Position numbers and translations under genes: made by a program | Assembly (NCBI GenBank): GCA_003662715.1 | Contig: QMYO01000012.1 | Location: 1 to 14,620, forward strand | DNA from: Candidatus Bathyarchaeota archaeon | GTDB taxonomy: Archaea; Thermoproteota; Bathyarchaeia; Bathyarchaeales; Bathyarchaeaceae | Direction of reading: 5' to 3' | DNA: 14,620 bases | The notes under the pieces: generated by a model | Database searches by the model: none | What the model was told of the DNA's origin: nothing | The model's input: only the letters and a program-made list of their open reading frames with translations | In this document: in pieces, positions 1,460 to 14,589 of the stretch | Layout of the letters: each line of letters opens with the position of its first letter | Numbering within the stretch: position 1 is the first letter of the stretch

Positions 1460-1485
1460 AAATCTTTCACGGTTAAAAATAAATA
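1460..1485 (+). promoter_or_regulatory. Promoter with TTTCACGGTTAA motif, site 1 (operon C)
   Basis: TTTCACGGTTAA occupies 1465-1476, and an A/T-rich box (AAAAATAAATA) follows at once. From the end of the motif to the TTG start at 1523 there are 46 bp. If the A/T-rich box is the TATA element, transcription starts near 1505 and leaves a short leader with GGAGG at 1512-1516. The same 12 bp recur in the gaps before the genes at 5835 and 9936. A factor-recognition or special BRE role is inferred from the fixed placement. Confidence 0.6.
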
Positions 1486-1522
1486 GACTGTCTAAATACT
1501 CCAATTCAGAAGGAGGATTAAA

Positions 1523-3337
1523 TTGGAAAGGGAAAAACTCATAGTTGCCTCCGCCCTACTCATAGCATTAATTCTTATAGCCGCGTATCTTATTCCCATG
1601 CCAACATACACGATTATTAGCGTCTCAAAAATTGAAGTTCAACCTCAAGGCTACGAAAACGCTCAAACTGGAGAGTGGGAAGGTAGCTACTGGGTAATCA
1701 CCGCCGTAACCGACATGACCGATGAGATAGGCGCCGTAAAGCTTGAGAACAGCACCGAAGGCACCGTAGACGGCAAAAAACTTGTGACAACAAGCGAAAT
1801 CACAATAAAAATAGACCCGCACAGACCATACTGGGAAATACCCGTAACATGGGAGCCGGTGCAGGTCTACCCGAAAACCTATAGAAGCTGGGTAAACAAG
1901 CTTGGTTTAGGCTATCTTCATGGAAGAGACGAAGATGTTTATGTGCCCGCTAAAACATTGACAGTTTACCGTTTTACACGCGACTACTGGGAAGCCCACA
2001 CACCCTTCACAATTTACGTCTATAAAAATGACAAGTTAATCGGCTCAAAATACATCGACACCATAGGCGGAACAGAAACAGTAACCATAGAAAACCCGGA
2101 TGACCCCAAAGAAAAAGTGATAATAACGAATCTCGGGAAGATAGGTGCAGCGTATCAATTAACCCTCAAAAACCTAATCTTCATAGAGAGCTTAACATAC
2201 GCATATGACGAAGACGCGCTTTCACTTCTGCGCTATGACCAAACATCACAATCTTTCAGCCAATACTGGTTCGGTCCAGCAAAAACCGTAACTGAGTATG
2301 GCAGCGCCTACAACAGGTGGAAAGACATAGGCTCCCCCATCGGCTTTTGGGCTTATGATACAGCGGCAGGCACAATGCTGCAAGGAAGAGTTGAAGCCCC
2401 GGGATGGCAGGCTGACGATGACTTTTGGAATTACAAACAAAAACCAAAAGAAGCTTCATTTAACACTATAATTGACTACGTTGAGGACTTTTATGTAAGA
2501 AAGAACATAGATGTTTGGGGGCAGGGAGCAAAAATAGTAGGCGGCAAACTACGAGTCTACCTGCCTTACGGTGCAATGTCAAGTCTGATAACAATCAAAA
2601 TCTCATCTGAACTCGCCGACACAATAGTTTGGCGTCCGCCGACAGCCAACCTAAAAATAGTGGATTACACGCAGATAGGCGACGTCGGCGATAGAGTAAG
2701 CTTCATGGTTAAAGTAAGACAGGAATCCACAGTTCGCTCGACTGGAAGAATAAGCATAGAGATAACTCCGCCTAACGCCCCAGCGGCAGTAGTTCCAGAA
2801 TATGTCTCGCCAACCCTAAACCCCGGAGAAGAAGCAACCTTCTACTTCGACTTCATAAACTTGGGAACAGACCAGAAAATAAGCGGACAAGTCAATATAA
2901 TATGCACCGAGCTGACTACAGGAACCGTAACCGACCAAGCATCCATAAGCTATACATTGCTTCCTAGAGAAGAAGAAGCCGTAACCTTAGAAGTATACAC
3001 AATAGACAAAGAAACAGGAGAAAAAGTCAGCGGCATACCCGTCACAATAAAATGGGACACCCAATCAGACCTGAAATACACTGACGAAGGCGTAGCAGTA
3101 TGGGACATGAAAGGCTATACTGGAACAGTCTTCATAAGCTCAGCCGAAACCGCAGCCTACAAATCCGAAAGCACATCAACAACCCTCCACAGAGGAATAA
3201 ACACGGTTACATTATACCTTGAAAAGAGCAAAGCGCCTCCACCGTCAATTCCAGAATGGGCAATATACATAATAATCGCTTCAATAATTGCAGTTGCAAT
3301 CGTCGCTTCCGTATATTTAATTAGCAGGAGGAGATAA
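1523..3337 (+). CDS. Large surface protein anchored at both ends
   Basis: This 604-aa protein starts at TTG with GGAGG six bases upstream. A signal/anchor helix spans about residues 7-24. A long beta-rich ectodomain of unknown family follows, with no recognised catalytic motif. About residues 385-490 look like a CARDB/Ig-type domain (NPGEEATFYFDF and alternating strands), and about 495-570 like a carboxypeptidase-regulatory-type beta domain (TGEKVSGIPVTI, then TDEGVAVWDM). A proline linker (APPPSIPEW) precedes a final membrane helix (about 577-600) ending in SRRR. The proline-glutamate, helix, arginine order is reminiscent of exosortase/archaeosortase sorting tails but matches no named one exactly. 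It heads the surface operon, and a dockerin-like gene follows 1 bp after its stop. It may be a receptor-binding, adhesin or scaffold protein; this is inference. Confidence 0.87.
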   Translation: MEREKLIVASALLIALILIAAYLIPMPTYTIISVSKIEVQPQGYENAQTGEWEGSYWVITAVTDMTDEIGAVKLENSTEGTVDGKKLVTTSEITIKIDPHRPYWEIPVTWEPVQVYPKTYRSWVNKLGLGYLHGRDEDVYVPAKTLTVYRFTRDYWEAHTPFTIYVYKNDKLIGSKYIDTIGGTETVTIENPDDPKEKVIITNLGKIGAAYQLTLKNLIFIESLTYAYDEDALSLLRYDQTSQSFSQYWFGPAKTVTEYGSAYNRWKDIGSPIGFWAYDTAAGTMLQGRVEAPGWQADDDFWNYKQKPKEASFNTIIDYVEDFYVRKNIDVWGQGAKIVGGKLRVYLPYGAMSSLITIKISSELADTIVWRPPTANLKIVDYTQIGDVGDRVSFMVKVRQESTVRSTGRISIEITPPNAPAAVVPEYVSPTLNPGEEATFYFDFINLGTDQKISGQVNIICTELTTGTVTDQASISYTLLPREEEAVTLEVYTIDKETGEKVSGIPVTIKWDTQSDLKYTDEGVAVWDMKGYTGTVFISSAETAAYKSESTSTTLHRGINTVTLYLEKSKAPPPSIPEWAIYIIIASIIAVAIVASVYLISRRR

Positions 3338-3338
3338 A

Positions 3339-3974
3339 ATGAAATCTAGAACAATAGGAATAATCCTCACTGTTCTGGGCATCGCGGTAATAGCGCTTTC
3401 TCTATATCAAGCTCAAGCCGAAGTAAAGATTATTGCATGGTACGACATGAACGGCGACAATGTAATAAACTATAAAGACTTCGATGTAAATAACGACGAC
3501 CTTGTTAACTGGATTGACGTCCAGCTTGTGCAAGAAGCGGCTAATAGCGGAACCTACATCGAACGGTACGACTTCAACTTGGATGGAGTTGTTGACCAAA
3601 CCGACGTTGACATAGTCCATCAATGGTTGGGAGAAGGAAGAATGGCGCTTTACGACATGAACGGAGACGGAATCGTTGATTGGCACGACTTAGACATAAA
3701 CGAGGACGGAAAAGTTGACATGATGGACATAGGCACCGTCGCTAGAGCTTACGGCTCAAAAATCGGAGATGCAAAATATAATCCCAAATGCGACTTCAAC
3801 ATGGACGGCGTGATAGACGACGCCGACTTAGACCTAATCAAGCCATACTTTGGCTATCCATTATCAATTTATAACCTGTTTAACATCACCCTCCCAATCG
3901 GACAACTCTTCATAATAGGCGTAATCTTAACCTTATTAGGCACGATTATAATCTTAACCTCAAAAGGAGGATGA
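3339..3974 (+). CDS. Dockerin-like EF-hand protein with duplicated module and two anchors
   Basis: A 211-aa protein with a signal/anchor helix at about residues 5-24 and a C-terminal helix at about 186-206. Between them are six calcium-loop motifs of the DxNxDGxVxxxD kind, starting at D36, D49, D78, D106, D119 and D152. They form two copies of a three-loop module (about 34-100 and 104-173) with the same internal spacing: 13 residues, then 29 or 33. Such loops bind calcium in EF-hand and type I dockerin domains, and dockerins dock onto cohesin domains. No cohesin is recognisable among the neighbours, so the partner is unknown. The domain should face outside, with both termini anchored. GGAGGAG at 3327-3333 sets the start, 1 bp after the previous stop. 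The operon also carries a glycoside hydrolase, a common companion of dockerins in bacteria. Confidence 0.85.
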   Translation: MKSRTIGIILTVLGIAVIALSLYQAQAEVKIIAWYDMNGDNVINYKDFDVNNDDLVNWIDVQLVQEAANSGTYIERYDFNLDGVVDQTDVDIVHQWLGEGRMALYDMNGDGIVDWHDLDINEDGKVDMMDIGTVARAYGSKIGDAKYNPKCDFNMDGVIDDADLDLIKPYFGYPLSIYNLFNITLPIGQLFIIGVILTLLGTIIILTSKGG

Positions 3975-3977
3975 AAA

Positions 3978-4415
3978 ATGAGATTTGTGAAACCCGATAT
4001 GTTGAATGCAAAAGAAATTGCGAAAGAAATCGCCGAAACAGGCTTATTAGCTCTGCTGTTTAATCCGCTGGCTCTATTAATACTCATCATAGCGTTTCTC
4101 GTCTTTCTTGCAGTCGGCCTAGGCATCATAATATACTACGGCTTAACCACAGCCATCGTACTATTCGTGCTTTCAGCCATAGGAGTTCTAATCCTGCACT
4201 ACACAAAAGCCGTAGACTTAACTAAACAGCCGCTCCTAGCCGCCCTACCCTTCATCATGTTAGCGGTAGGCTACTTCGGAGAAAGACTACGCATATTCGC
4301 AATACAACCGTTATGGATAACACAAACAACGGCGACGACTGGCAACCTGCAACCCTTCATCATGCTAATAATACTGATAATACTTGCCGCGGCAATAGCC
4401 TCAAAGAGGAGGTAA
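3978..4415 (+). CDS. Polytopic membrane protein, 145 aa
   Basis: An amphipathic, lysine- and glutamate-containing N-terminal stretch (about residues 1-22) is followed by four predicted membrane helices at about 24-44, 45-70, 85-100 and 124-141, ending in SKRR. GGAGG at 3966-3970 lies 7 bp upstream of the ATG and overlaps the end of the dockerin-like gene. I do not recognise a family or any catalytic motif. Position inside the surface operon suggests a membrane platform for the anchored proteins around it. Confidence 0.8.
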   Translation: MRFVKPDMLNAKEIAKEIAETGLLALLFNPLALLILIIAFLVFLAVGLGIIIYYGLTTAIVLFVLSAIGVLILHYTKAVDLTKQPLLAALPFIMLAVGYFGERLRIFAIQPLWITQTTATTGNLQPFIMLIILIILAAAIASKRR

Positions 4416-4420
4416 AAACA

Positions 4421-4726
4421 GTGAACGCCAAAGCCTTCGCTGTCGGAGTAATACTAGTTTTTCTGGGTTGGTACGTGAACACAATTAGTATTCCTATGCC
4501 CGGCGTAGACTACTGGTCGCCTTCTTCAGGCGTAACGATTCCCTACCCAACAATTGTCTGGGGCAACCCTCTAGGTTTCCTGTCGCTCCCCCTTGTCCTA
4601 ATTGGGGCAATTCTAATCGCATTCGGATTATTCGAAAACACGGCAATCAGAATAGTCCTGACAATACTGATAGTTGTCTGGGTGCTCGTGTTTAAAGCAG
4701 CCCCAATATTGGGGGTTATACCTTGA
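4421..4726 (+). CDS. Polytopic membrane protein, 101 aa (GTG start)
   Basis: The frame stays open upstream to 4313 inside the preceding gene, but GAGGAGG at 4406-4412 followed 8 bp later by GTG at 4421 is the better start and leaves only a 5-bp gap. The protein has an N-terminal helix (about residues 4-20), a short outside loop rich in Pro, Tyr, Ser and Trp (about 24-48), and two more helices (about 51-70 and 73-95). The family is unknown. The stop overlaps the TTG of the next gene (TTGA), indicating translational coupling. Confidence 0.75.
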   Translation: MNAKAFAVGVILVFLGWYVNTISIPMPGVDYWSPSSGVTIPYPTIVWGNPLGFLSLPLVLIGAILIAFGLFENTAIRIVLTILIVVWVLVFKAAPILGVIP

Positions 4727-4923
4727 CTGCGTGGAGCATTTTCTGGAACGCCGTAAAAGCCTATCTGGGCTGGCTTTTTCTCACAGCAATATTCATTTTG
4801 GTTGCTTCCTTTACTGAGGGATTCAAAGCCTACTGCCCAATTAACAGCTTCATTTGTGGAAGCATAGCCGTATTCCTTGCAATCTTGATTTTAGGACTCG
4901 CCTTCGGAGTGTGGCGGAGGTGA
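4723..4923 (+). CDS. Small membrane protein, 66 aa (TTG start)
   Basis: The start TTG overlaps the previous stop as TTGA, with a G-rich GGGGG site about 8 bp upstream. Two membrane helices (about residues 9-30 and 43-62) flank a loop with two cysteines (YCPINSFIC), which could form a disulfide outside the cell. The tail WRR is basic and probably inside. Its stop is overlapped by the GTG of the glycoside hydrolase (GTGA), so the two products are made together. It may be a membrane partner of that enzyme. Confidence 0.7.
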   Translation: MTAWSIFWNAVKAYLGWLFLTAIFILVASFTEGFKAYCPINSFICGSIAVFLAILILGLAFGVWRR

Positions 4924-5780
4924 ACATTCTTAGAGTCTGCAGCGCCTTCACAAGTAGGCTTGGCGCACTAGCCCTTCTCTTTCTAGCCTTCACATCGGGA
5001 ACCGTATTATACTTTGCTTTTGCTTGGCACACCTCGGCTAAGCCAGCCCTCGGCATAGTCTACTTCTATGATAGGGATGAAACATACATGATAATTTCGG
5101 AGCTTGAAAGAATTAAAGAGGACGGCTTCCAGATAGTTTCAATCCCCTTTGTATGGCACGACAACCCTAAAGACCCTTTAAGGGTGAAAACAGACGTTTT
5201 AATGGAGAAATGCTCCCAGCTAGGCTTAAAGGTTTATGTCCGTGAACCTTGGCAAGAAAACTTCGAAGCACTTGAAAAATATCTATCCGCTTACGCCTCT
5301 AAAATAAGCTACTTTCAAGTCATAAACGAGGCTGACTCCCAATTCTTCAAGGAATGGAGGGTTCCCGGAGAGTTAGCGTCTCTAGCCCAGAAAAACGCTG
5401 AAATAATCAAAAAATTTAATCCGAACATAAAAACTGTGGCAAGCTTCTCAACTCCGCTGACGCCAACCCTAATTGCCAGAATAGCCGAACACGTTGACAT
5501 AGTTGCCCTAGACATCTACGAGCAAGTTCAGCTAGACACATTCCCAATCCAGATGCAAACTCTACTTACATTATCAGGAAAAGACACAATATGGATAGGC
5601 GAATTCGGCTATGCCTCCCTCGACGACCAAGCACAAGCAGAATTTATCCGAAAAGGCCTCGACATTTTCGCCAAAAACGGAGTTGAAGCAGTCATAATCT
5701 GGGGTTGGAAAAGCTTTGTAGGTTTAAACATTAAGGATAGGCTTGCCGAAACCACAATAAAAACTTGGAGCCAACCTTAA
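4920..5780 (+). CDS. Membrane-anchored clan GH-A glycoside hydrolase-like protein
   Basis: From GTG 4920 (GTGA overlap) this gives 286 aa. The same frame is open upstream to 4854, but that part runs inside the previous gene. Residues 14-38 form a signal/anchor helix, and the rest reads as a TIM barrel. The clan GH-A marks are visible: Asn136-Glu137 at the end of a strand (FQVINEAD) as acid/base, VDIVALDIYEQ (about 192-202) typical of strand 6, Glu228 in IWIGEFGY as nucleophile, and Trp261/Trp263 in VIIWGWK after strand 8. These fit families such as GH5, GH39 or GH113; I cannot choose among them. It should act on surface or environmental polysaccharide outside the membrane. It closes the surface operon, and the next promoter motif begins 3 bp after its stop. 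Confidence 0.82.
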   Translation: MNILRVCSAFTSRLGALALLFLAFTSGTVLYFAFAWHTSAKPALGIVYFYDRDETYMIISELERIKEDGFQIVSIPFVWHDNPKDPLRVKTDVLMEKCSQLGLKVYVREPWQENFEALEKYLSAYASKISYFQVINEADSQFFKEWRVPGELASLAQKNAEIIKKFNPNIKTVASFSTPLTPTLIARIAEHVDIVALDIYEQVQLDTFPIQMQTLLTLSGKDTIWIGEFGYASLDDQAQAEFIRKGLDIFAKNGVEAVIIWGWKSFVGLNIKDRLAETTIKTWSQP

Positions 5781-5805
5781 ATTTTTCACGGTTAAGCTTT
5801 TTTAA
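5781..5805 (+). promoter_or_regulatory. Promoter with TTTCACGGTTAA motif, site 2 (operon D)
   Basis: TTTCACGGTTAA lies at 5784-5795, only 3 bp past the stop of the glycoside hydrolase. An A/T box, GCTTTTTTAAC, follows. The distance from motif end to the TTG at 5835 is 39 bp. The motif is preceded by ATT, making a T-run (ATTTTTCACGG) that could also end transcription of the upstream operon, a compact terminator-promoter junction. Eleven bases (5789-5799) are also found in reverse at 62-72. Confidence 0.6.
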
Positions 5806-5834
5806 CTGAAGAACTAAACAAAATTAGAGCAAAA

Positions 5835-6056
5835 TTGAACTTGAAAGATTTCATTATAGGAATGATTGCGACGGTTATGGGCATAATAGCCTTCGGCATC
5901 CTCGTCAAAATGTCGTGGCAAATCTGGGACTTTATCGTTCAAAGGCTTGCTGAAACGGGATATCCGCCGGGCACGGAATATCTTCTTGGAATGGCTCTGC
6001 TGATAATAGCTGTTTACCTCGGAATAGTTCAACTAAAAAAGCCGAGGTTAACATGA
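5835..6056 (+). CDS. Small membrane protein, 73 aa (TTG start)
   Basis: The first gene after promoter site 2. TTG 5835 gives a start MNLKDF; a second in-frame TTG at 5841 is also possible, and neither has a strong ribosome-binding site, so the transcript may have a very short leader. Two membrane helices (about residues 7-25 and 47-65) flank a loop with WDFIVQRLAETGYPPGTEY. The tail is basic (KKPRLT). The family is not recognised. Its stop lies 1 bp before the next ATG, and it is co-transcribed with the SpoIIM-like gene and the two proteases. Confidence 0.72.
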   Translation: MNLKDFIIGMIATVMGIIAFGILVKMSWQIWDFIVQRLAETGYPPGTEYLLGMALLIIAVYLGIVQLKKPRLT

Positions 6057-6057
6057 A

Positions 6058-6576
6058 ATGTATCTGAGTAGGGGTTTCATGCTCTGTTTAATCTTTTCGT
6101 TCATTTTGTTAGTGGGGATTCTCTATGTGTCTGCCAATCAGGCATATGTGTACGGCTCAGTTGAAGAGGCTAACCAGACGCGGGAATTAATTGAAACTGA
6201 AAGGCAGGAAGTGTCGGCGCAGAGCATATTCCTTAACAATCTTCTTATAAGCCTTCCCATGATAGTTCCAGCGGTTGGGCTGGCGCCTTTCCTTATAGCT
6301 TGGCATAATACTGGATGGATAATTGGGCTTCTCAGCCTAGCCTACGGCGTCCCGCCGTCAACCTACATTTCAAATCTAATTGTGCTAGCATTTCCCGAAC
6401 TGCTTTCCTATGCTGTTCTATGCGCTGAGAACATCTATGTCACAGTCTTAGCTCTCTTCAAGGCTGGAGCGAAACAGCGCATCACCCAGCATTCATGGAA
6501 AAGTTTCATATTTTATATCCTCCTACTCTTTATAGGGGCGGTTTCGGAGGCGAATATGATTGCTTCAGTTAGGTGA
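6058..6576 (+). CDS. SpoIIM-like (DUF95-type) membrane protein
   Basis: A 172-aa protein with an N-terminal helix (about 6-25), a polar region (26-55) rich in Glu, Arg and Gln, then helices at about 62-82, 86-96, 106-134 and 148-165. The layout and several spots match the SpoIIM-like family known from archaea and bacteria: IFLNN (57-61) opening the second helix, PELLSYAVLCAENI in the middle, and a last helix ending GAVSEA. SpoIIM acts in peptidoglycan remodelling in sporulating bacteria; in archaea the role of these homologues is unclear. GAGGT about 10 bp upstream supports the ATG. The following protease gene starts 17 bp before this stop. Confidence 0.7.
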   Translation: MYLSRGFMLCLIFSFILLVGILYVSANQAYVYGSVEEANQTRELIETERQEVSAQSIFLNNLLISLPMIVPAVGLAPFLIAWHNTGWIIGLLSLAYGVPPSTYISNLIVLAFPELLSYAVLCAENIYVTVLALFKAGAKQRITQHSWKSFIFYILLLFIGAVSEANMIASVR

Positions 6577-7186
6577 GCCATACGACAAACCCTTCCTGTA
6601 TGTTTACGTCATTTCATACACGTTCCTACTCATTACTTTGCTTTCTGGCTACTACCTGAATGTTACTCAACTGCTCGCCTACTCAAGCATCTACCTAGCC
6701 ATGATAACTGTAAGCCTAACCTTCATGAGGGGAGTAGAAAACGGAAAAATAGTCGAAGGAACTGTGATGTCCATTATAGGGCTGTTTGCGGTAACCTTCA
6801 TATTTGGCTTCATAACCAGAAACTTTCGCATAATGGGCACGTTCCAGCTTCAGCCCATGTCCTTGATGTTGCTGGCTATCCCGCCACAAACTGTGCTTCA
6901 GGCAATGATGGTTATTCCAAACGCCACCGCCGAAGAATCCTTCTTTCGCATAGGCTTATACCACATGCTAAAGGCGGTAATGCCAAAGCACTGGGCGATA
7001 TTGACACAGGCAATACTCTTCGGAATATTCCACTACTACGCCTATGCTATGAACGTTGCAGGCATAGTAACCGCTGCAGCCGCAGGCATTCTTCTAGGCA
7101 TAATCTACGATGCGACAGGAAGCGAGTTCGCCCCCACATTCGCACACACAATATATAATATTATGGCCTTGTTGGGAGGTGCATGA
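6560..7186 (+). CDS. CPBP-family (CAAX-type) intramembrane protease, copy 1
   Basis: A 208-aa polytopic protein carrying the three motifs of the CPBP/Abi family (Rce1-like, glutamate-dependent) in order: EExxxR at Glu125-Glu126-Arg130, FxxxH at Phe154-His158 and HxxxN at His196-Asn200. All presumed catalytic residues are present. The family includes CAAX prenyl endopeptidases and bacteriocin-processing or immunity proteins. Start: TTG 6560 with GGAGG at 6546-6550, overlapping the SpoIIM-like gene by 17 bp. The active face lies in the membrane. It is one of two such proteases in this operon, clearly different in sequence outside the motifs. Substrates may be the small membrane proteins next to it, an inference from context only. 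Confidence 0.85.
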   Translation: MLQLGEPYDKPFLYVYVISYTFLLITLLSGYYLNVTQLLAYSSIYLAMITVSLTFMRGVENGKIVEGTVMSIIGLFAVTFIFGFITRNFRIMGTFQLQPMSLMLLAIPPQTVLQAMMVIPNATAEESFFRIGLYHMLKAVMPKHWAILTQAILFGIFHYYAYAMNVAGIVTAAAAGILLGIIYDATGSEFAPTFAHTIYNIMALLGGA

Positions 7187-7187
7187 A

Positions 7188-7406
7188 ATGGCGATTGGAA
7201 AACAAGAACTAATAGGATTTATCCTGATGCTTCTATTCGTAAGCTTCACAGCATCTGGAATAGTTCTCATCAATGTGGTTTTCACCGTGGCTCCACCATA
7301 CACCATTTACGGTAGACAGATAACGTTTACAGTAAATGTCGGCTTGGTTCTTATCCTGCTTGGCCTGCTGGCTTTAGCTCTTCTTCTAAGGATGGGAACG
7401 AAGTGA
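7188..7406 (+). CDS. Small membrane protein between the two proteases, 72 aa
   Basis: ATG 7188 is chosen because GGAGG at 7175-7179 lies 8 bp upstream and the previous gene stops at 7186; the frame is open further upstream but there overlaps the protease. Two membrane helices (about residues 8-33 and 48-67) flank a short loop (APPYTIYGRQITFT). The tail is RMGTK. The stop overlaps the GTG of the second protease (GTGA), so production is coupled. Sitting between two CPBP proteases makes it a natural candidate for a substrate or adaptor, though no cleavage motif is recognisable. Confidence 0.72.
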   Translation: MAIGKQELIGFILMLLFVSFTASGIVLINVVFTVAPPYTIYGRQITFTVNVGLVLILLGLLALALLLRMGTK

Positions 7407-8032
7407 GCGTTTTAGCTGAGACATCTTGGAAGCTAACAGTAATCTTCGTAGGCTTCCTAGTCTACTCTTGGATATGGATAATAACCAACATCCCAGAACT
7501 ATTTACTCTAGGAGTAATCTACGGGTTCCTGATGTTGTCCGGCATGATAATCTCCGTCTTTCTTATTTCTACAAATAAGCCAGTGTTCGGCTTTCCACCC
7601 CTACGCCTAATGCCTGAAACCACAATCGTAGGAGCATTTATCGGTCTGCTGAGCGTGCTGATTTCTGGAGCAATCTCACAGCTTCCCCTATTCCAAGTTT
7701 CAATCTACATGCAGCTTCCCCCGCTAATCGCGCTCTTCTTCGCAGTTCTAATCTCATGCACCGAAGAATCCTTCTTCAGAGGAGCGCTTCTTCCAGTAGT
7801 ATACTACTATGGAAACGAAAACGTCATACAAGCGATAATCCACAATTCAATCCTCTTCACAATACTGCACTGGGTAGCCTACCAAGCATCAATTCCCTCC
7901 CTAATCTCAAGCTTCATATTCTCAATAATAGTCTCTGCCGCATCGCTACACTACAAAAGCGGCTATGTTGGAATGATAGCCCATGTAACCTACAATCTGA
8001 TGATTCTGCACAGCATCACAGGCTTTCCGTAA
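7403..8032 (+). CDS. CPBP-family (CAAX-type) intramembrane protease, copy 2
   Basis: A 209-aa polytopic protein starting at GTG 7403 (GTGA overlap with the 72-aa gene). CPBP motifs are intact: EESFFR with Glu121, Glu122 and Arg126; FTILH with Phe152 and His156; HVTYN with His194 and Asn198. Helices occupy most of residues 10-115. The EESFFR hexamer is shared exactly with copy 1, but the flanking regions differ, so these are old paralogues or separate acquisitions rather than a recent duplication. It is the last gene of the membrane operon; after its stop comes the TnpB unit with its own promoter. The cellular role is unknown; protein maturation or bacteriocin-type immunity are the known roles of the family. 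Confidence 0.85.
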   Translation: MSVLAETSWKLTVIFVGFLVYSWIWIITNIPELFTLGVIYGFLMLSGMIISVFLISTNKPVFGFPPLRLMPETTIVGAFIGLLSVLISGAISQLPLFQVSIYMQLPPLIALFFAVLISCTEESFFRGALLPVVYYYGNENVIQAIIHNSILFTILHWVAYQASIPSLISSFIFSIIVSAASLHYKSGYVGMIAHVTYNLMILHSITGFP

Positions 8033-8073
8033 GTTGGTTTTGATTTATGGGGTGTTGCGTCTTCAGGAGAATG

Positions 8074-8080
8074 TTTAAAT
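8074..8080 (+). promoter_or_regulatory. TATA box for the RHH-TnpB unit
   Basis: TTTAAAT lies 25 bp ahead of the ATG at 8106. At the usual archaeal distance transcription would begin at or within a few bases of the ATG, and no ribosome-binding site is visible in the gap. The transcript is therefore probably leaderless. The TTTCACGGTTAA motif is absent, so this unit is not wired like its neighbours. Confidence 0.55.
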
Positions 8081-8105
8081 ACGTCTTGGCATTATAGGAT
8101 ATTAT

Positions 8106-8258
8106 ATGTCTAAGACCGATAGAAAGACAACAGTAACTCTCCATAAGTCGACCTTGAAGAGGCTGGCAGAGCTTAAAGTCCATCCTAGACAAAGCTATGA
8201 AGAGGTTATGCTGAGGCTTCTAGAGGTGTATGAGGAGCGGAAGCGGTTAAAGCGGTGA
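8106..8258 (+). CDS. Small ribbon-helix-helix protein upstream of TnpB, 50 aa
   Basis: A 50-aa ORF with the look of archaeal ribbon-helix-helix/VapB-like antitoxins: a KTTVTLHKSTLKRL start (strand then helix), LAELKVHPRQSYEEVMLRLLEV, and a charged end ERKRLKR. Such proteins bind DNA as dimers through the first strand. It probably starts at the 5' end of a leaderless message. Its TGA overlaps the GTG start of TnpB (GTGA), so the two are translationally coupled. It could repress the unit, act as a TnpB accessory, or be a remnant antitoxin; no toxin of a known family is adjacent. Confidence 0.8.
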   Translation: MSKTDRKTTVTLHKSTLKRLAELKVHPRQSYEEVMLRLLEVYEERKRLKR

Positions 8259-9382
8259 AGTGTGTCGGCATTCCCTATCAGCCCTCGCAAGATGTTCTCA
8301 GGCTCCTTGAGACATTCAGGGGTATGGTTAACTACTGTATCCACATAGGATTGGAGAAAGGGATAACTTCGAGGTTTAGGCTCACAAGAGAGACCTATCA
8401 CAGGCTGATGGGATACGGGTATCATAGCTGGTATGTTCTTTCAGCAATCGAGGTAGCTACAACAATTCTCAAGAACTATAGGAAAGCTAAGAGAAAAAAG
8501 CTTAGGGTCAAGGTTCCTAGAGCAAGAAGGCTTATGGCTAAAATCGGAAATCAAGCTATTAAAGTAGCTGACGGAATGCTGAGAATACCATTGAAGCCTA
8601 GACGATACCTTTATATACAGCTCTACGAGAGGGCCAGAGACCTCCTAGAAGAATATAAGGTTTGCTCAGCAACCCTGACCTCGAAAGCCGTCTACGTAGC
8701 CTTCTCTAAGACAGTCACAGTGAGAAGACCTAGAGGTTGGATAGCAATTGACGTAAACGAGGATAACGTTACAGCCGTAAGCTCCGACGGCGAGGGTAAG
8801 GTCTTTGACCTCTCCAAGTTGAAGAAGGCTAGCTATGGATACTTTGAGAGGAAAAGAAGGCTTCAGCGGAAATATCGTAAGGATAGAAGAGTGTTGAGAA
8901 AGGCGCTTTCAAAGCTGTCTGAGAACTACCGCAACAAGGTTTCCACCATGCTCCACCAAGCTTCTACAGCCATAGTGAAGTGGTGCAGAGAGAAGAATTA
9001 TGGTTTAATCCATGAGAACCTGAAGGGCTTAAGAAAAACCGTGAATGCGAAGATAAAACGGTTCAACAAATTTAATGGTAAAATCCAGCAAATTTCTAAA
9101 CGCCCAAAGAAACTTAAGAGAAGGCTGAACAATTGGTGGTTTAGGAAGTTCCTAAATCAAATATCCTACAAATGTACGTGGGGAGGAGTGGAAACAATTG
9201 AAAGCAAACATACAAGAGGCTCCTCATCCACCTGCCCGATATGTGGGTCTAAGTTAATAAAATACCCGAAAGGGCTGGTGGAATGCAAAAAACATGGATT
9301 GATGAACAGGCACGTGGTAGCCTGTTTGAACCTACTCAGATGGGAGGGTGTTGGTTCGCCCTCGACCGCCCCTCGAATGTAG
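8255..9382 (+). CDS. tnpB: TnpB (IS200/IS605 OrfB) RNA-guided nuclease, third RuvC acid apparently lost
   Basis: A 375-aa TnpB, full length for the family. RuvC-I Asp166 is in IAIDVNEDN and RuvC-II Glu254 in LIHENLKGL. The zinc finger uses Cys327, Cys330 (CPIC), Cys344 and His347 (CKKH) in place of the more usual fourth Cys. In the RuvC-III motif, commonly DRDVxAxxNL in archaeal members, this protein reads NRHVVACLNL: the position aligned with the catalytic Asp (six before the conserved Asn359) is His353, and the preceding Asp is Asn351. If the alignment is right, DNA cutting may be reduced or lost while guide-RNA binding could remain. No TnpA transposase is present, so the element would depend on one elsewhere. 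It is coupled to the ribbon-helix-helix gene. Confidence 0.9.
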   Translation: MKCVGIPYQPSQDVLRLLETFRGMVNYCIHIGLEKGITSRFRLTRETYHRLMGYGYHSWYVLSAIEVATTILKNYRKAKRKKLRVKVPRARRLMAKIGNQAIKVADGMLRIPLKPRRYLYIQLYERARDLLEEYKVCSATLTSKAVYVAFSKTVTVRRPRGWIAIDVNEDNVTAVSSDGEGKVFDLSKLKKASYGYFERKRRLQRKYRKDRRVLRKALSKLSENYRNKVSTMLHQASTAIVKWCREKNYGLIHENLKGLRKTVNAKIKRFNKFNGKIQQISKRPKKLKRRLNNWWFRKFLNQISYKCTWGGVETIESKHTRGSSSTCPICGSKLIKYPKGLVECKKHGLMNRHVVACLNLLRWEGVGSPSTAPRM

Positions 9383-9475
9383 CCGTGAACCTAGCCCTAA
9401 CAAGCCCTATGGCGATGAGGACAAGCTAGGTGAGCCTAAGAGGGGAAGTTGTGTCTCCTAAATGCAACAGAACCC
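9383..9475 (+). ncRNA. Possible right end / guide (omega) RNA region of the TnpB unit
   Basis: TnpB guide RNAs are normally made from the end of tnpB and the bases after it up to the element end. Here 9389-9395 (ACCTAGC) and 9425-9431 (GCTAGGT) form a perfect 7-bp stem enclosing 29 bases with a small internal GCC/GGC pairing. A purine-rich stretch GAGGGGAAG follows. The region has no convincing ORF of its own and precedes a new TATA box at 9481. The exact element end and guide start cannot be set by eye. Confidence 0.3.
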
Positions 9476-9480
9476 GTAAG

Positions 9481-9488
9481 TTTTATAA
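9481..9488 (+). promoter_or_regulatory. TATA box for the 110-aa membrane protein gene
   Basis: TTTTATAA, an archaeal-type box, lies 40 bp ahead of the ATG at 9529 and 25 bp ahead of the GTG at 9514. It sits just after the putative TnpB element end, so the gene downstream is independently transcribed and not simply read through from the TnpB unit. Confidence 0.5.
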
Positions 9489-9528
9489 CCATAAAGGCAT
9501 AAAGGAACAAAATGTGTCGGTGAACATA

Positions 9529-9861
9529 ATGAACCCTATAAACGCGTTTCTGCTCTTCTCGGCAATCTCCTACTTCATATGTATTTTCTTCCCGAAGCCA
9601 GTGACAAAAAACGTCAAATCAAGAACTTTTGAACGCCTATTCATGGCAATGTCAGGCGCACTCCTAACATTAAACCTTGCCCTCGACATCAGGCTTCTAT
9701 GGTTAACCTACGCGATAATCTGGACTGTTGCAGCAGGAGCCTCCTACCTAGGATACACCGTCTGGAACGTGCTCTGGAAAAAAGAAGCCTCAGAAGCAGC
9801 CCAAATGACTATGTTCGCATGGGACGCACTAATAGCCATATGTTGCCTCTTGAAATTTTAG
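9529..9861 (+). CDS. Polytopic membrane protein, 110 aa
   Basis: The frame is open from 9430, but the upstream part is Arg/Lys/Asn-rich, overlaps the TnpB end region and precedes the promoter, so it is unlikely to be coding. ATG 9529 has GGTGA at 9519-9523; GTG 9514 with AAAGGA at 9501-9506 is the alternative. Four membrane helices are likely (about residues 4-20, 37-52, 56-82, 94-107), with a KNVKSRTFER cytoplasmic loop. There is no recognised family. It is a single-gene unit between TnpB and promoter site 3. Confidence 0.68.
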   Translation: MNPINAFLLFSAISYFICIFFPKPVTKNVKSRTFERLFMAMSGALLTLNLALDIRLLWLTYAIIWTVAAGASYLGYTVWNVLWKKEASEAAQMTMFAWDALIAICCLLKF

Positions 9862-9876
9862 AATCAGAAATCCAAA

Positions 9877-9900
9877 AATTTTTCACGGTTAAACTTTAAA
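9877..9900 (+). promoter_or_regulatory. Promoter with TTTCACGGTTAA motif, site 3
   Basis: TTTCACGGTTAA at 9881-9892 is identical over 12 bp to sites 1 and 2, and the match extends left with site 2 (AATTTTTCACGGTTAA). CTTTAAA at 9894-9900 is a good TATA box. The motif ends 43 bp before the TTG at 9936, with GGTGA at 9925-9929 as ribosome-binding site. It starts 19 bp after the stop of the 110-aa gene. Confidence 0.62.
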
Positions 9901-9935
9901 GTCTAGCTTTACAATCTTTTTTGTGGTGACTAAAT

Positions 9936-10745
9936 TTGGCTGTTGAAGTGAGAGGTTCAACTCTGCTAATTGTCCTAGGCATGGTCTTGCTGGGCGTCGG
10001 CGTAGTCTATCCATTCATAACGTTAGTCGTGGACACTACTCCTCCTGATATAGCGGCAACGTGCCCTGAGAATGGCAGGGTTTATACTTCGCTGACTGAA
10101 ATTAATGCTTGGGTTGGCGACCCGGAAACAGATGTTGTAAGTGTAACCTGCACAATTAACGGTCAAACCTATACCCTACGTAAGTCTCATCTTACTCCAT
10201 ACGCGATTGCAGATACAGGGGGCTACGCCCTCTGGGAATACGACATTCCAGACATAACTACTGGAGGAACATACTCGTTCACCTTTAGGGCGAAAAACAA
10301 GGCTGGATTAACCGCGGAATACTCTGGAACCTTCACAATCTACACCGCACTACAAGGCAACTGGTACGTCAACAATCAACCCATAACAAGCCCAACTCAA
10401 ACAATTTACACTACCTCTCCGACAGTAAGCTTCAAATTCCAGAAAACAGCCGGAGTAGAAGACACAAAAATTTCGTGCTGGGTTGAAGAAGGCGGAGCAA
10501 GAATCTTAACATTAACACTCACCGACACCGCAAACCACATATGGACAGGCACCTACACATTCACCCCCGGAACCCACACCATCAAACTTGTAGCCAGCGA
10601 CGGAACAAACACCGTAACATTTAGCATAATCGGCTTAACCATACAGGGCGTAGGAGGCTGGACATTAACAACACAGCAAACCCTAATGCTCATAGGTGCA
10701 ATCGCCATAGTCGCCGGAGTAACACTCCGCATAAAAGGAAAATAG
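9936..10745 (+). CDS. Surface protein with two Ig-like domains and two anchors
   Basis: A 269-aa protein from TTG 9936. An N-terminal helix spans about residues 9-32. A first Ig-like domain (about 34-137) opens with DTTPPDI, a frequent lead-in of prokaryotic Ig-like repeats, and contains the pair Cys43/Cys72. A second domain (about 141-236) has NGT-like turns and SDGTNTVTFSI near its end. A C-terminal helix at about 247-263 ends in RIKGK. The plan (helix, beta ectodomain, helix) copies that of the 604-aa and dockerin-like proteins. It stands alone between promoter site 3 and a T-run terminator. A surface display or adhesion role is inferred from architecture. Confidence 0.83.
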   Translation: MAVEVRGSTLLIVLGMVLLGVGVVYPFITLVVDTTPPDIAATCPENGRVYTSLTEINAWVGDPETDVVSVTCTINGQTYTLRKSHLTPYAIADTGGYALWEYDIPDITTGGTYSFTFRAKNKAGLTAEYSGTFTIYTALQGNWYVNNQPITSPTQTIYTTSPTVSFKFQKTAGVEDTKISCWVEEGGARILTLTLTDTANHIWTGTYTFTPGTHTIKLVASDGTNTVTFSIIGLTIQGVGGWTLTTQQTLMLIGAIAIVAGVTLRIKGK

Positions 10746-10795: not shown

Positions 10796-10844
10796 GTCGC
10801 TCTGATATTGCAGAGCCAAAGATGAGAAGAGCACAGAACCCTAA

Positions 10845-10860
10845 AATTTTTTAAGGTTTT
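10845..10860 (+). promoter_or_regulatory. Degenerate copy of the TTTCACGGTTAA promoter motif, site 4 (operon H)
   Basis: AATTTTTTAAGGTTTT matches 12 of 16 positions of the extended site 2/3 sequence AATTTTTCACGGTTAA, keeping AATTTTT and GGTT. It ends 48 bp before the TTG at 10909, close to the 39-46 bp of the three perfect copies. This agreement appears only with the ribosome-binding-site-based start at 10909, not with the earlier TTG at 10873, so motif and start support each other. Confidence 0.4.
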
Positions 10861-10908: not shown

Positions 10909-11307
10909 TTGCCTGTGTACGAGCTATTCTTTTCAATATATGTAATAGCGGTTCTAGTCTTTGCCTATGCCTCACTGAGGCATCTTGGTTTACTGACCAA
11001 AAGTCCTGCCGAGCAACTTATGGAAAAACAGAAGTTGATGGAACAAGTCACACGGGTATTACACGATGCCCACTGCCCGTTATGTGGCGGTAAATCCAAC
11101 ATTTGGCAAATTGACCTGTGGAAAGGCAACTTTGCCATAACTAAATGCGAAAAATGCGGGCAAAACGCCTTATGGAGACTTGAGTCGCATCGATGGAGGT
11201 TGGTAGCTCCCTACCGACCAGTTCTTAAGCCTCAAATTGTGCTGGAGACTCCGCGTTCCAAGGAGAAGGAAATGCTGAAGGAGGAGGCTAAAAATGCAGT
11301 CGGCTGA
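10909..11307 (+). CDS. Membrane-anchored zinc-ribbon protein, 132 aa
   Basis: TTG 10909 is preferred over TTG 10873 because GGGAGG at 10898-10903 lies 5 bp upstream and because the promoter motif fits. One membrane helix (about residues 5-23) is followed by a charged linker and a zinc ribbon with Cys56, Cys59 (CPLCG) and Cys80, Cys83 (CEKCG), then a basic and acidic tail (SKEKEMLKEEAK). The ribbon probably faces the cytoplasm or a partner protein; no enzyme motif is seen. It is the first gene of the last operon. Its end overlaps the start of a 35-aa ORF by 14 bp. Confidence 0.78.
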   Translation: MPVYELFFSIYVIAVLVFAYASLRHLGLLTKSPAEQLMEKQKLMEQVTRVLHDAHCPLCGGKSNIWQIDLWKGNFAITKCEKCGQNALWRLESHRWRLVAPYRPVLKPQIVLETPRSKEKEMLKEEAKNAVG

Positions 11308-11434: not shown

Positions 11435-11890
11435 ATGCAAAGAATGATGTATGAGCAGGCGGTGCAGCAAGTCAACGCCACAGCCCCCAAAGTAGCCATT
11501 TCCGTCAGGCTCATTCCGACTCCGCCAGCCAGAAACATACCCTCAAACACGGTAACCTTCCTAACGGGCTATCTTGAAGCCACAAACCTTGAAGACCTGT
11601 ACTATCCATGCATTCTAACCGCCAACTTCACAGTAACCCACACTTCAACAAATCCAAACGCAACAGTAGAATACAGCTACATTCCATATCAGCAAGTTTA
11701 CCTATCCAAAGGAGTTCAACTCGTTCAGCTTCCATTCGGAGTTTTCCCCCTAACCGTCTATAATGCACATCCAGGAGACCAAATAGCGATAACAGTCAGA
11801 GCAACAACTCAAGTTTACTGGGAGCCAATTCACGCTTTAATGTCAACCCAAACGGCTGAATGCACAATAATTCTGGAGGTGACTACGTGA
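11435..11890 (+). CDS. Beta-rich ectodomain ORF, C-terminal part of a split gene
   Basis: From ATG 11435 the product is 151 aa, but the frame is open back to the TGA at 11399. It has no signal peptide or helix of its own, although the content looks external: NAT, NFT and NAT sequons, many Thr/Val/Tyr in strand-like patterns, and two long beta segments (about 40-75 and 85-148). No ribosome-binding site lies ahead of 11435. Fused to the preceding 35 aa it would have the N-terminal helix plus outside domain plan seen in the gene at 201. The family is unknown. Its TGA overlaps the GTG of the following gene. Confidence 0.7.
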   Translation: MQRMMYEQAVQQVNATAPKVAISVRLIPTPPARNIPSNTVTFLTGYLEATNLEDLYYPCILTANFTVTHTSTNPNATVEYSYIPYQQVYLSKGVQLVQLPFGVFPLTVYNAHPGDQIAITVRATTQVYWEPIHALMSTQTAECTIILEVTT

Positions 11891-12678
11891 CGCTGATTGA
11901 CTTCCTAGTTCAATACCGAGTCTACTTTGTCATAGCAATTTTCCTAGCATGGTTCATATATGCACTTCACCATACCGGAAAACTTAGAATACGTCGAGTC
12001 AGCTTGAAAAGAGCGCCTTCAGCTGCATTAATTCCCGTCGAGCAGCGTCTCTCCATAACCGAAGCAGAACTTGCAAGATTGCGTAAAGAAAACGAAAGAC
12101 TAACCCTTCAGCAAGCAGAAATCAAGAGAAAACAAGCCGAAAAAGAAATAGAAAAAATAGTAGAAAAAGAAATTCGAGCAATACTTCCTGAAAAACTCTA
12201 CCTCTTCGACCCAGACAACCAGCCAATATCAAGGCCGATTTACTATATTGGAGGAGTGCCCTGCATAGAGAAAAAGGAGGAAATAAACAGGATAATAGAT
12301 AGGTCGCCAATTCTAAAGGCGTTATCAAAGCTCTCCGCATCTCTCGCCTATAAACTTGCCGACTTTCTCTACTTCAAAGGAGACACACTATACTTCTATA
12401 CCGCGGAGTTACTTCCGAATGGCCATTGGTGCATAGCTGCAACGTCAAAGCCAGCTAGAAAAACCGGACGCTACATTAAACTTCCAAGAATATGCGAAAC
12501 CTACATTCTGCTCTCAAGCGGTCAAAGAAGAATAGACGACCTAATAGTCAACAAGTGGGAAGTCATAAAGGCGGGAGCAGCCATACACCTTGCCGCGACC
12601 GTTCTGGGGCCATTTCCAGCCGAGGAGTACTCCCAAATAAAGAGAAATGCGGGGTGGTTTGTTGAAGAAAAAAGCTGA
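11887..12678 (+). CDS. Membrane-anchored coiled-coil protein, 263 aa
   Basis: GTG 11887 overlaps the previous stop (GTGA) and has GGAGG at 11875-11879, 7 bp upstream; the frame extends to 11860 but that start lacks this signal. One membrane helix (about residues 12-28) is followed by a basic patch (KLRIRRVSLKR), a coiled coil (about 54-98) rich in Glu, Lys and Arg, and then a compact domain (about 100-263) of mixed helices and strands with no motif I know. The positive residues after the helix place the bulk of the protein inside the cell. A link between the membrane and the soluble coiled-coil protein encoded next is plausible. Confidence 0.8.
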   Translation: MTLIDFLVQYRVYFVIAIFLAWFIYALHHTGKLRIRRVSLKRAPSAALIPVEQRLSITEAELARLRKENERLTLQQAEIKRKQAEKEIEKIVEKEIRAILPEKLYLFDPDNQPISRPIYYIGGVPCIEKKEEINRIIDRSPILKALSKLSASLAYKLADFLYFKGDTLYFYTAELLPNGHWCIAATSKPARKTGRYIKLPRICETYILLSSGQRRIDDLIVNKWEVIKAGAAIHLAATVLGPFPAEEYSQIKRNAGWFVEEKS

Positions 12679-13270
12679 AAAAAATGGAGACCCTCCTAGA
12701 ACAATAGAAACAGACCTCCTAGACCTTCAGCAAAGAATAGACCAAGTAGAGAAGAGCTTACATAGCCTGCGCGACCATCTAGTCGTCACCAGAGAAGCCG
12801 TCATCCTACAGTCAGAATCAGTTCCGTTCCTACTGCAACAATATAAAAGGCTTGCCCTAGACCTCGCTGCACAAGACAGACTCCTGCATCAAATAGAGGA
12901 AGAACTAGGCATACGCTACAACAGCTTCCAAAACGCAATAAGAGAAACCTCAAGAGCTAAAGAAGAACTAAAGCTAACTCGCAAATACCTAGACACAGCA
13001 CTCAAAAACTACAGAACGGTAAGAGAAGAAAACATGGAACTAAAAGAGAAAAATGAAGAACTAGAAAGACAGCTGAGAGTAAAAGACGAAATCATAAAAG
13101 GAATGAAAAAAGCAATAACCGAAATATCCAAACTGCTGGAGCAAACAAAGACCCCTCCCGAAACATTAGACGAGCTAAGAAGGATACTAAGGGAAGCCGC
13201 CGCTCCAACTCCACGAATCCCCACAGAGGAGGAAGAAATTGAAGAGGAACTCGAAGAAGAACTTGAGTGA
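12647..13270 (+). CDS. Soluble long coiled-coil protein with acidic tail, 207 aa
   Basis: ATG 12647 overlaps the upstream gene by 32 bp. In-frame TTG codons at 12659 and 12662, just after a G-rich stretch (12651-12657), are possible later starts. After a basic N terminus (LKKKAEKN) come coiled-coil segments at about residues 21-48, 62-88 and 95-168, a Pro-containing linker (TPPETLDELRR) and a run of Glu at 194-207. No membrane helix is seen. The Glu codon run (GAGGAGG) also supplies the ribosome-binding site of the next gene. Its family is unknown; it could be a scaffold or tether acting with the anchored coiled-coil protein before it. Confidence 0.78.
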   Translation: MRGGLLKKKAEKNGDPPRTIETDLLDLQQRIDQVEKSLHSLRDHLVVTREAVILQSESVPFLLQQYKRLALDLAAQDRLLHQIEEELGIRYNSFQNAIRETSRAKEELKLTRKYLDTALKNYRTVREENMELKEKNEELERQLRVKDEIIKGMKKAITEISKLLEQTKTPPETLDELRRILREAAAPTPRIPTEEEEIEEELEEELE

Positions 13271-13553
13271 ACTAGAAACAGACGAAGCCAAAGCCCTACA
13301 ACTCGCCATGCTAATAAACGACATAAGAGAAACAGCCTCACTAAGACAGCTCCGATACATCCGCCAAGTACTCTCCGAAATAAAGAAAACACCAAAAATA
13401 ACCCCTTCAGCTAAACCGCTAAAACTCACAGAGATTGCCCCCGAACTACAAAAAGAGGAATCCGAACAATTCCAGCCTGAAACAGGAACCCCGCCGCAAA
13501 GCTGGTTTGAACGCCTAAGAAGAAGACTAAGAAGGGGGCGAGGCGCGGCATGA
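13239..13553 (+). CDS. Small charged protein with basic tail, 104 aa (TTG start)
   Basis: TTG 13239 has GGAGG at 13228-13232 six bases upstream, within the Glu-rich end of the preceding gene, giving a 32-bp overlap. TTG 13263 is a weaker alternative. The product has a basic N terminus (KRNSKK), a helical part (about residues 10-50), a Pro/Thr-rich middle and a strongly basic amphipathic end (WFERLRRRLRRGRGAA). The basic ends could bind the acidic tail of the coiled-coil protein encoded upstream, nucleic acid or membrane. The family is not recognised. It ends in an ATGA overlap with the thioredoxin-fold gene. Confidence 0.7.
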   Translation: MKRNSKKNLSELETDEAKALQLAMLINDIRETASLRQLRYIRQVLSEIKKTPKITPSAKPLKLTEIAPELQKEESEQFQPETGTPPQSWFERLRRRLRRGRGAA

Positions 13554-13960
13554 CAGAATACTATGAGCTACAGAATCCAGAATACGCAGGAGAACAGCAA
13601 CGGAAATATCTGGATAGGCTGGCTGAATTAAGAAAGCTCAAACCGAAAGTCCGCATAACATTTCTCTACAGCACGCGATGTCCACATTGCAGATTAGTTA
13701 AACCAATACTAGAAAAGTATGTTCAAAGACATCCTGAAATAAGCCTGACAGAACTAAACGTGGAATCAAAAGAGACATACACTAACCTTCTAGAAGCCAC
13801 TCTAAAAGGCGAACTGGAAGTTCCAGTAGCAGTAATAAACGACAGATTCATAGTTAAAGGAGACAAAGACTTCTTGGCTAGACTAACCTACGCCATAAAG
13901 CTTGCGGAAAACACGCCTCCAACCCGAGAGGAGGAAGCCAAATGGCTTTTGAAAAAGTAA
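13550..13960 (+). CDS. Thioredoxin/glutaredoxin-fold protein with CPHC site
   Basis: A 136-aa protein without a signal peptide. A helical N-terminal extension (about residues 1-32) precedes a thioredoxin fold: strand VRITFLY, active site Cys44-Pro-His-Cys47 (CPHC, as in DsbA- and glutaredoxin-like proteins), helix, strand SLTELNV, and the cis-proline Pro92 in EVPVAVIND. It ends with a charged helix (TREEEAKWLLKK). It should reduce or exchange disulfides in the cytoplasm, for instance those of the Cys-containing anchored proteins encoded nearby, though targets are not shown. The ATGA overlap with the previous gene couples translation. Confidence 0.85.
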   Translation: MTEYYELQNPEYAGEQQRKYLDRLAELRKLKPKVRITFLYSTRCPHCRLVKPILEKYVQRHPEISLTELNVESKETYTNLLEATLKGELEVPVAVINDRFIVKGDKDFLARLTYAIKLAENTPPTREEEAKWLLKK

Positions 13961-14589
13961 AAAAGAAGCTAGCCAAAACCATGAAGAAAATACTCGAAGA
14001 ATACAACATTCTTTACTATGATGAAGCGATACTTGTAATGTTTGACCCGTACAGCATATCGGAAGACCCAGACAAAACATACTGGCTGTGTAAAAACGTG
14101 ACTGTGCGATTTTACCCTGACGGAAACGTCATAGCCGAAAAAATAGGTGTCAGCGAATACATAACCAAGCAGCAGGCTGAAACGCTCCACTCAGAAATGG
14201 GCATACCCCTCATCTACACGCAGTACACAGACCTCTATGACACCAAACTAGAAGCAGACCTCAACAGAAAACAGCTAACAGAAATACCACTCGAAATAGA
14301 AGTTGAAGGCGCCATAATAGGCTACAACCAGTCCCCACTAGAAGCCCTAATAATAGCCAGCATAGAAAAATTCGGCCGAGGAAAAGCAACCCTCGACCAA
14401 ACAATAAACTACCTAACAATGCCGCCGCCAGACGGAGGAGGCTGGTACCACGCAACCCCGCAACTCAGACGAAAAGTAGAACAAAAACTCCAACAGCTAA
14501 CCGCAAAAGGCGTACTAGAATACAACCCCGAAACCCTAGAATACACTTTAATAGCCAAACCAACAACATCAAAAATAGAAAAGAGGTGA
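13942..14589 (+). CDS. Winged-helix-like protein, 215 aa
   Basis: ATG 13942 has GGAGG at 13930-13934, 7 bp upstream, and overlaps the previous gene by 19 bp. A basic helical start (KVKKKLAKTMKKILEEY) leads to a mixed alpha/beta domain (about residues 22-128) that I do not recognise. Residues 132-205 resemble a winged helix: ALIIASIEKFGRGKATLDQ, a helix with RRKVEQKLQQLTAKG as the recognition-helix position, then a wing (VLEYNPETLEYTLI). It may bind DNA and regulate the operons, or use the winged helix for protein contacts. A Pro/Gly-rich loop (PPPDGGG, 161-167) inside the domain is unusual. Confidence 0.78.
   Translation: MAFEKVKKKLAKTMKKILEEYNILYYDEAILVMFDPYSISEDPDKTYWLCKNVTVRFYPDGNVIAEKIGVSEYITKQQAETLHSEMGIPLIYTQYTDLYDTKLEADLNRKQLTEIPLEIEVEGAIIGYNQSPLEALIIASIEKFGRGKATLDQTINYLTMPPPDGGGWYHATPQLRRKVEQKLQQLTAKGVLEYNPETLEYTLIAKPTTSKIEKR

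Follow-up and report, generated by a model that had tools for sequence, protein, structure and literature searches.

What is the function of a short DNA string that recurs three times on the same strand of what appears to be a Bathyarchaeia-associated mobile element, each time shortly before a gene or operon? In the window (the whole stretch of 14,620 bases analysed here) the 12-mer TTTCACGGTTAA is found at 1465-1476, 5784-5795 and 9881-9892, always on the forward strand and always in an intergenic gap preceding an operon, and an exact search of both strands bore out the claim of an earlier, sequence-only reading that the window holds no further exact copy. The common unit exceeds the 12-mer by five bases on its 5' side, i.e., it is the 17-mer AAATYTTTCACGGTTAA (family D3; 1460-1476, 5779-5795 and 9876-9892). 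The bare threefold repeat is only moderately unusual, a string of 12 bases or longer being seen three times anywhere in the window on one strand in 2/300, 2/300 and 10/300 simulations (Markov orders 1, 2 and 3, respectively). It is the position of the copies in gaps, not the repetition as such, that makes the repeat convincing. According to our gene calls, eight gaps of at least 30 bases account for 852 of the 14,620 bases (one gap is 3 bases over-long, a gene start having been taken at 10912 instead of the actual TTG at 10909). When these gaps were simulated with an order-2 Markov model, at least three of them shared a 12-mer in 1 of 5000 runs. The remaining gaps contain no exact copy, and the one before 10909 has a degenerate version (Table 1).

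The end of the 12-mer lies 46, 39 and 43 nt before the start codon at sites 1, 2 and 3, and we read the start codon as TTG in each case; at site 2 a second TTG at 5841 would be 45 nt away. Thus, the spacing described earlier as fixed holds within about 7 nt and is not strictly constant. The sites themselves are roughly evenly spaced (4319 and 4097 bp apart), a pattern that could also be expected of a site with a non-transcription role (an iteron or recombination site, for instance). We regard such a role as very unlikely, given that each copy has the same strand, the same distance to a start codon and BRE/TATA-like sequence attached, and that another copy precedes an ORF in an otherwise unrelated contig (see below).

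Table 1 Features of the three repeat sites, the units behind them and a degenerate copy
Feature	Position	Strand	Remarks
Site 1, upstream box AAATCTTTCACG	1460-1471	+	sequence comparison
Site 1, BRE-like GTTAAA	1472-1477	+	register picked to fit; putative function
Site 1, TATA-like AATAAATA	1478-1485	+	register picked to fit; putative function
First gene after site 1	1523-3337	+	604-aa surface-type protein, TTG start
Site 2, upstream box AAATTTTTCACG	5779-5790	+	overlaps at its 5' end with the preceding gene's stop codon
Site 2, BRE-like GTTAAG	5791-5796	+	putative
Site 2, TATA-like CTTTTTTA	5797-5804	+	putative
Unit after site 2	5835-8032	+	73-aa protein, SpoIIM-like protein, two Rce1-like CAAX proteases, small protein
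Site 3, upstream box AAATTTTTCACG	9876-9887	+	sequence comparison
Site 3, BRE-like GTTAAA	9888-9893	+	putative
Site 3, TATA-like CTTTAAAG	9894-9901	+	putative
Gene after site 3	9936-10745	+	single 269-aa gene, TTG start
Degenerate copy of the 17-mer	10844-10860	+	13/17 match; 48 nt ahead of TTG 10909; doubtful member

From 5' to 3', the order of parts is identical at the three sites: the 12-bp box AAATYTTTCACG comes first, GTTAAA/G follows as the BRE-like part, and the last is a TATA-like octamer, which begins two bases after the 12-mer in a register that we chose to fit. The box, in which inspection reveals no palindrome, is invariant at 11 of 12 positions, while the octamers and leaders differ. 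The archaeal BRE consensus is RNWAAW, and the BRE-like GTTAAG of site 2 agrees with it at five of six positions. A strong archaeal BRE carries G at -6 and A at -3, as given in the excerpt of PMC11065993, and GTTAAA has both before the octamer. The idea that the repeat is an unusual BRE is thus probably wrong, as the six bases before the octamer (GTTAAA, GTTAAG and GTTAAA, in the register chosen to fit) come near to a strong archaeal BRE; the 3' half of the repeat unit is probably an ordinary, near-consensus one, which would make the upstream 12-bp box the special part. The unusual BRE suggested by the sequence-only reading could mean a divergent BRE recognized by a special TFB, be it a host paralogue or one encoded by the element. 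Placing the TATA box a few bases further upstream does bring CACGGT to the BRE position, and the register is uncertain. However, the better-fitting register has a near-consensus BRE, and no TFB-like protein was present among the window proteins scanned with Pfam, so we hold a divergent BRE to be improbable.

We consider that the three sites are instances of a single composite archaeal promoter employed by a Bathyarchaeia-associated mobile element, and that the box is the site of a putative regulator (a rough probability of 0.62). Promoter function, start sites and the existence and identity of the regulator are what we infer here from the repeat, its position, its spacing and its rarity elsewhere. 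Read from 5' to 3', such a promoter would consist of the box, an ordinary TFB element (GTTAAA/G), the TATA-like octamer, a short leader and the TTG. Host TBP and TFB would assemble on its 3' half, with transcription starting roughly 5-15 nt before the start codon, and one sequence-specific regulator would bind the box directly upstream of the BRE, switching the surface, protease and third units together. The occurrence of three copies on one strand, all in gaps (1/5000 gap simulations), supports the composite promoter, as does the recurrence of box, BRE-like and TATA-like parts in the same order; repeat, position and geometry likewise support the earlier proposal that the three sites are common promoters of one regulon.

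There are also points against it. All three sites have a BRE+TATA core pattern plausibly spaced from the start codon, in a register chosen to fit, and this pattern has low specificity: of 538 host upstream regions, 40 contained it versus 32 on the opposite strand (11.3 in letter shuffles), so that such matches are weak evidence. Furthermore, the BRE-like part of site 2 deviates, and a clear ribosome site is missing from the sequence before its gene; the first and third genes are preceded by GGAGG (1512-1516) and GGTGA (9925-9929), respectively.

The sites could instead be recent copies of one strong promoter cassette, the box being a copied flank that serves no dedicated regulator. Sites 1 and 3 are indeed 79% alike over 39 bp (D7), and the BRE-like part is near consensus, whereas activators such as TFB-RF1 serve weak BREs, as described in part of PMC5937170. 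We nonetheless think this unlikely, as a box that is kept while octamers and leaders diverge is the opposite of what simple copying would leave.

The 604-aa surface-type protein has no Pfam match; with an E-value limit of 1e-3, at least 26 database proteins match it, among them its own entry. Its unit also contains a dockerin protein (Pfam). The SpoIIM-like protein of the second unit falls just under the Pfam cut-off. The gene at 9936 had been called Ig-like; its product has no Pfam match. Ahead of the window's first gene there is a hairpin (81-100, CTCCC-N10-GGGAG), which may be a terminator or may mark where an inserted element ends.

Outside the window, one copy stands out, that of locus L025, on a 116-kb contig of a Bathyarchaeota MAG (CALMWK010000125.1) that carries housekeeping genes. 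It shares 27 bp with site 3 (expected 1.2e-7 in 440 Mb and 7e-5 in 257 Gb) and is the only one of 19 non-coding contigs in which the match runs on through the octamer (8/8 bases, the others reaching at most 4). A glutamate dehydrogenase gene precedes this copy, and 33 bp separate it from the following gene, that of a 211-aa HNH-domain protein, downstream of which are a GINS-like gene and then an MCM-like gene (MCM by our reading). Both the 27-bp match at 33 bp from an ORF on a Bathyarchaeota contig and its unique continuation through the octamer support the composite promoter; given the same match, a restriction of the motif to this type of element is unsupported. A search of 50 family genomes found the HNH protein in G001 itself (the genome of this copy), the 49 others yielding two weak partial matches, and the gene may have been acquired together with its promoter. 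In a wider reading, AAATYTTTCACG would serve as operator for a transcription factor common to Bathyarchaeia mobile elements. Its regulon would extend to cargo genes that have settled in host chromosomes (e.g., the HNH gene in G001), with the result that genes of the element and host-resident ones would be switched together. We entertain this reading only tentatively, as well short of an even bet.

Taken together, the hits in the genome collection do not exceed chance level, since the 17-mer was found in 105 contigs versus about 87 expected (Markov model). These comprise 86 coding, 15 other intergenic and 4 promoter-position occurrences, three of the last four being bacterial by title. Thirteen viral contigs contain the 17-mer, with one copy each and no sign of kinship; in one (L003) it lies 19 bp ahead of an ORF, and in five (L005, L006, L009, L010 and L012) it is located inside an ORF of 588-593 aa, probably one conserved gene. 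The string TTTCACGGTTAANCTTT occurs in 51 viral contigs (45 coding, 6 intergenic and 0 in promoter position). In print, the sole occurrence of the literal 12-mer that we found was in a paper on E. coli CusF.

An exact 17-mer was found once in 256 Bathyarchaeia genomes, and up to one mismatch allowed 26 places in 25 of them (12 for the reversed pattern). Of these 26 places, 15 lie inside ORFs >150 aa. An ORF follows at 33 bp both from the exact copy (L180, the one with the 27-bp match to site 3) and from one near-match (L178); another near-match (L171) has a 62-aa ORF at 39 bp. On the coding strand of the 538 upstream regions (five genomes), CACGGTTAA occurs twice, one being the known G001 copy. 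These counts (17-mer exact 1x/256 genomes, CACGGTTAA 2x/538 upstream regions) rule out a general Bathyarchaeia promoter element, and a de novo motif search upstream of host genes returned TATA-like strings and no CACGG. With up to three mismatches the 20-mer TTTCACGGTTAAACTTTAAA was matched in 90 of 256 genomes; the 30 loci that we examined, a part of all matches (15 coding, 10 intergenic, 5 in promoter position), prove nothing, as they were picked by similarity.

Counts of the 12-mer with up to one mismatch were high in G205 (51 versus 2 for the reversed pattern), and ranged elsewhere from 41:24 (G001), 25:5 (G197), 24:13 (G067), 23:15 (G198) and 19:3 (G161) to 13:17 (G103), 9:9 (G163) and 1:1 (G202). 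In 40 stretches of G205 (486 kb), 23 of 29 such places are in ORFs >=90 aa and 6 outside, with 0 for the reversed pattern. We rejected a host-wide regulon as the source of the high count, the places being mostly coding, and read the excess as a k-mer bias of coding DNA, which the reversed-pattern control does not capture.

As a composite promoter-like unit, the repeat is of a kind already known from archaeal viruses. Halovirus HF2 has intergenic repeat promoters of 58 and 29 bp, examined with reporters and primer extension, for which a virus-encoded regulator was proposed (excerpt of PMC8707807). As in HF2, copies of a conserved promoter, made up of BRE, TATA and further conserved blocks, stand before several units within a single genome; unlike the HF2 promoters, the unit described here is 17 bp long and known from sequence alone, and both host and sequence differ. 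In SIRV2 the wHTH protein Aca8 is the proposed repressor of early promoters (PMC11065993, in part). There and in other archaeal viruses, a conserved regulatory sequence around the BRE/TATA core is likewise common to several genes of one element, and the three sites share with both viruses the placement of the same promoter before several units of one element. The SIRV2 promoters, however, are early ones of Sulfolobales viruses and serve mostly single anti-defence genes, whereas our sites precede operons of membrane and secreted proteins and have no known regulator. A third parallel is TFB-RF1 of Pyrococcus, an activator that binds directly upstream of the BRE at a palindromic box and serves weak BREs (PMC5937170, in part). 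The known use of activator boxes just upstream of BRE/TATA supports the composite promoter, and the Thermococcales motif also shares the conserved distance and the small number of promoters; unlike it, AAATYTTTCACG is non-palindromic and adjoins a BRE-like part near consensus. On promoters of Bathyarchaeia viruses, a narrow literature search found nothing beyond work on RNA polymerase evolution, and the word "promoter" is absent from the main text of a Bathyarchaeia virus survey, as far as its excerpt goes (PMC10848311). The repeat is a first handle on gene control in the elements of an uncultured archaeal class and, if the box is a regulator site, it could help to track down the regulator and allow co-expressed element genes to be predicted.

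A dedicated transcription factor for the repeat is plausible. For the candidate at 13942, previously put forward as a winged-helix protein, searches of PHROGs, Pfam, PDB sequence profiles and NCBIfam gave no winged-helix match. Its family was matched in a single one of 256 class genomes (G205) and, weakly, in two of 398 genomes of the phylum. A 3.6-kb contig binned with G205 (L202; C126, 1-3611) encodes relatives of the 11435, 11860, 12647 (weak, E 0.003), 13550 and 13942 proteins in the same order with other genes between, and this syntenic fragment spans the downstream operon only (11435-14200). Between its coiled-coil and thioredoxin-like genes it has an added HTH gene (2670-3020). The HTH protein of the related contig is ArsR-like in NCBIfam, below the cut-off, and profile comparison with the 13942 protein gave a probability of 0.5%.

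Protein relatives in other genomes point to Bathyarchaeia as the source of the window. Searches of phages, plasmids, viral contigs and the genome collection with the query proteins or DNA returned no relatives, save a weak transposase match to TnpB, and Rfam and tRNA scans were empty. The 604-aa surface protein has matches in 7 of 256 genomes, clear in G198 and G067 and weak in five; the G198 relative is distant (32%), and the genes neighbouring it look chromosomal to us. Virus-like contigs of the Bathyarchaeia genomes G114 (C117, L296-L298) and G228 (C25, L299) contain relatives of the 269-aa protein. The G114 relative is inside an operon, which precludes a promoter comparison; five places within 2 mismatches of the 12-mer were found in this remotely related contig and none in that of G228. 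By our reading, both contigs carry many small membrane proteins and an integrase-like protein. TnpB (8255-9382, forward strand) and the preceding 50-aa protein have adjacent relatives in G163 (69% and 86% identity, respectively). The 50-aa protein (8106-8258, forward strand; Pfam DUF7557) overlaps the TnpB start and is possibly a regulator travelling with TnpB. The TnpB-like protein and two of its relatives (L193 and L194) end in NRH(V/I)xA, while L195-L198 have DRDENA. The NRH histidine presumably stands at the usual position of the last RuvC aspartate, and this TnpB clade is possibly nuclease-dead or altered.
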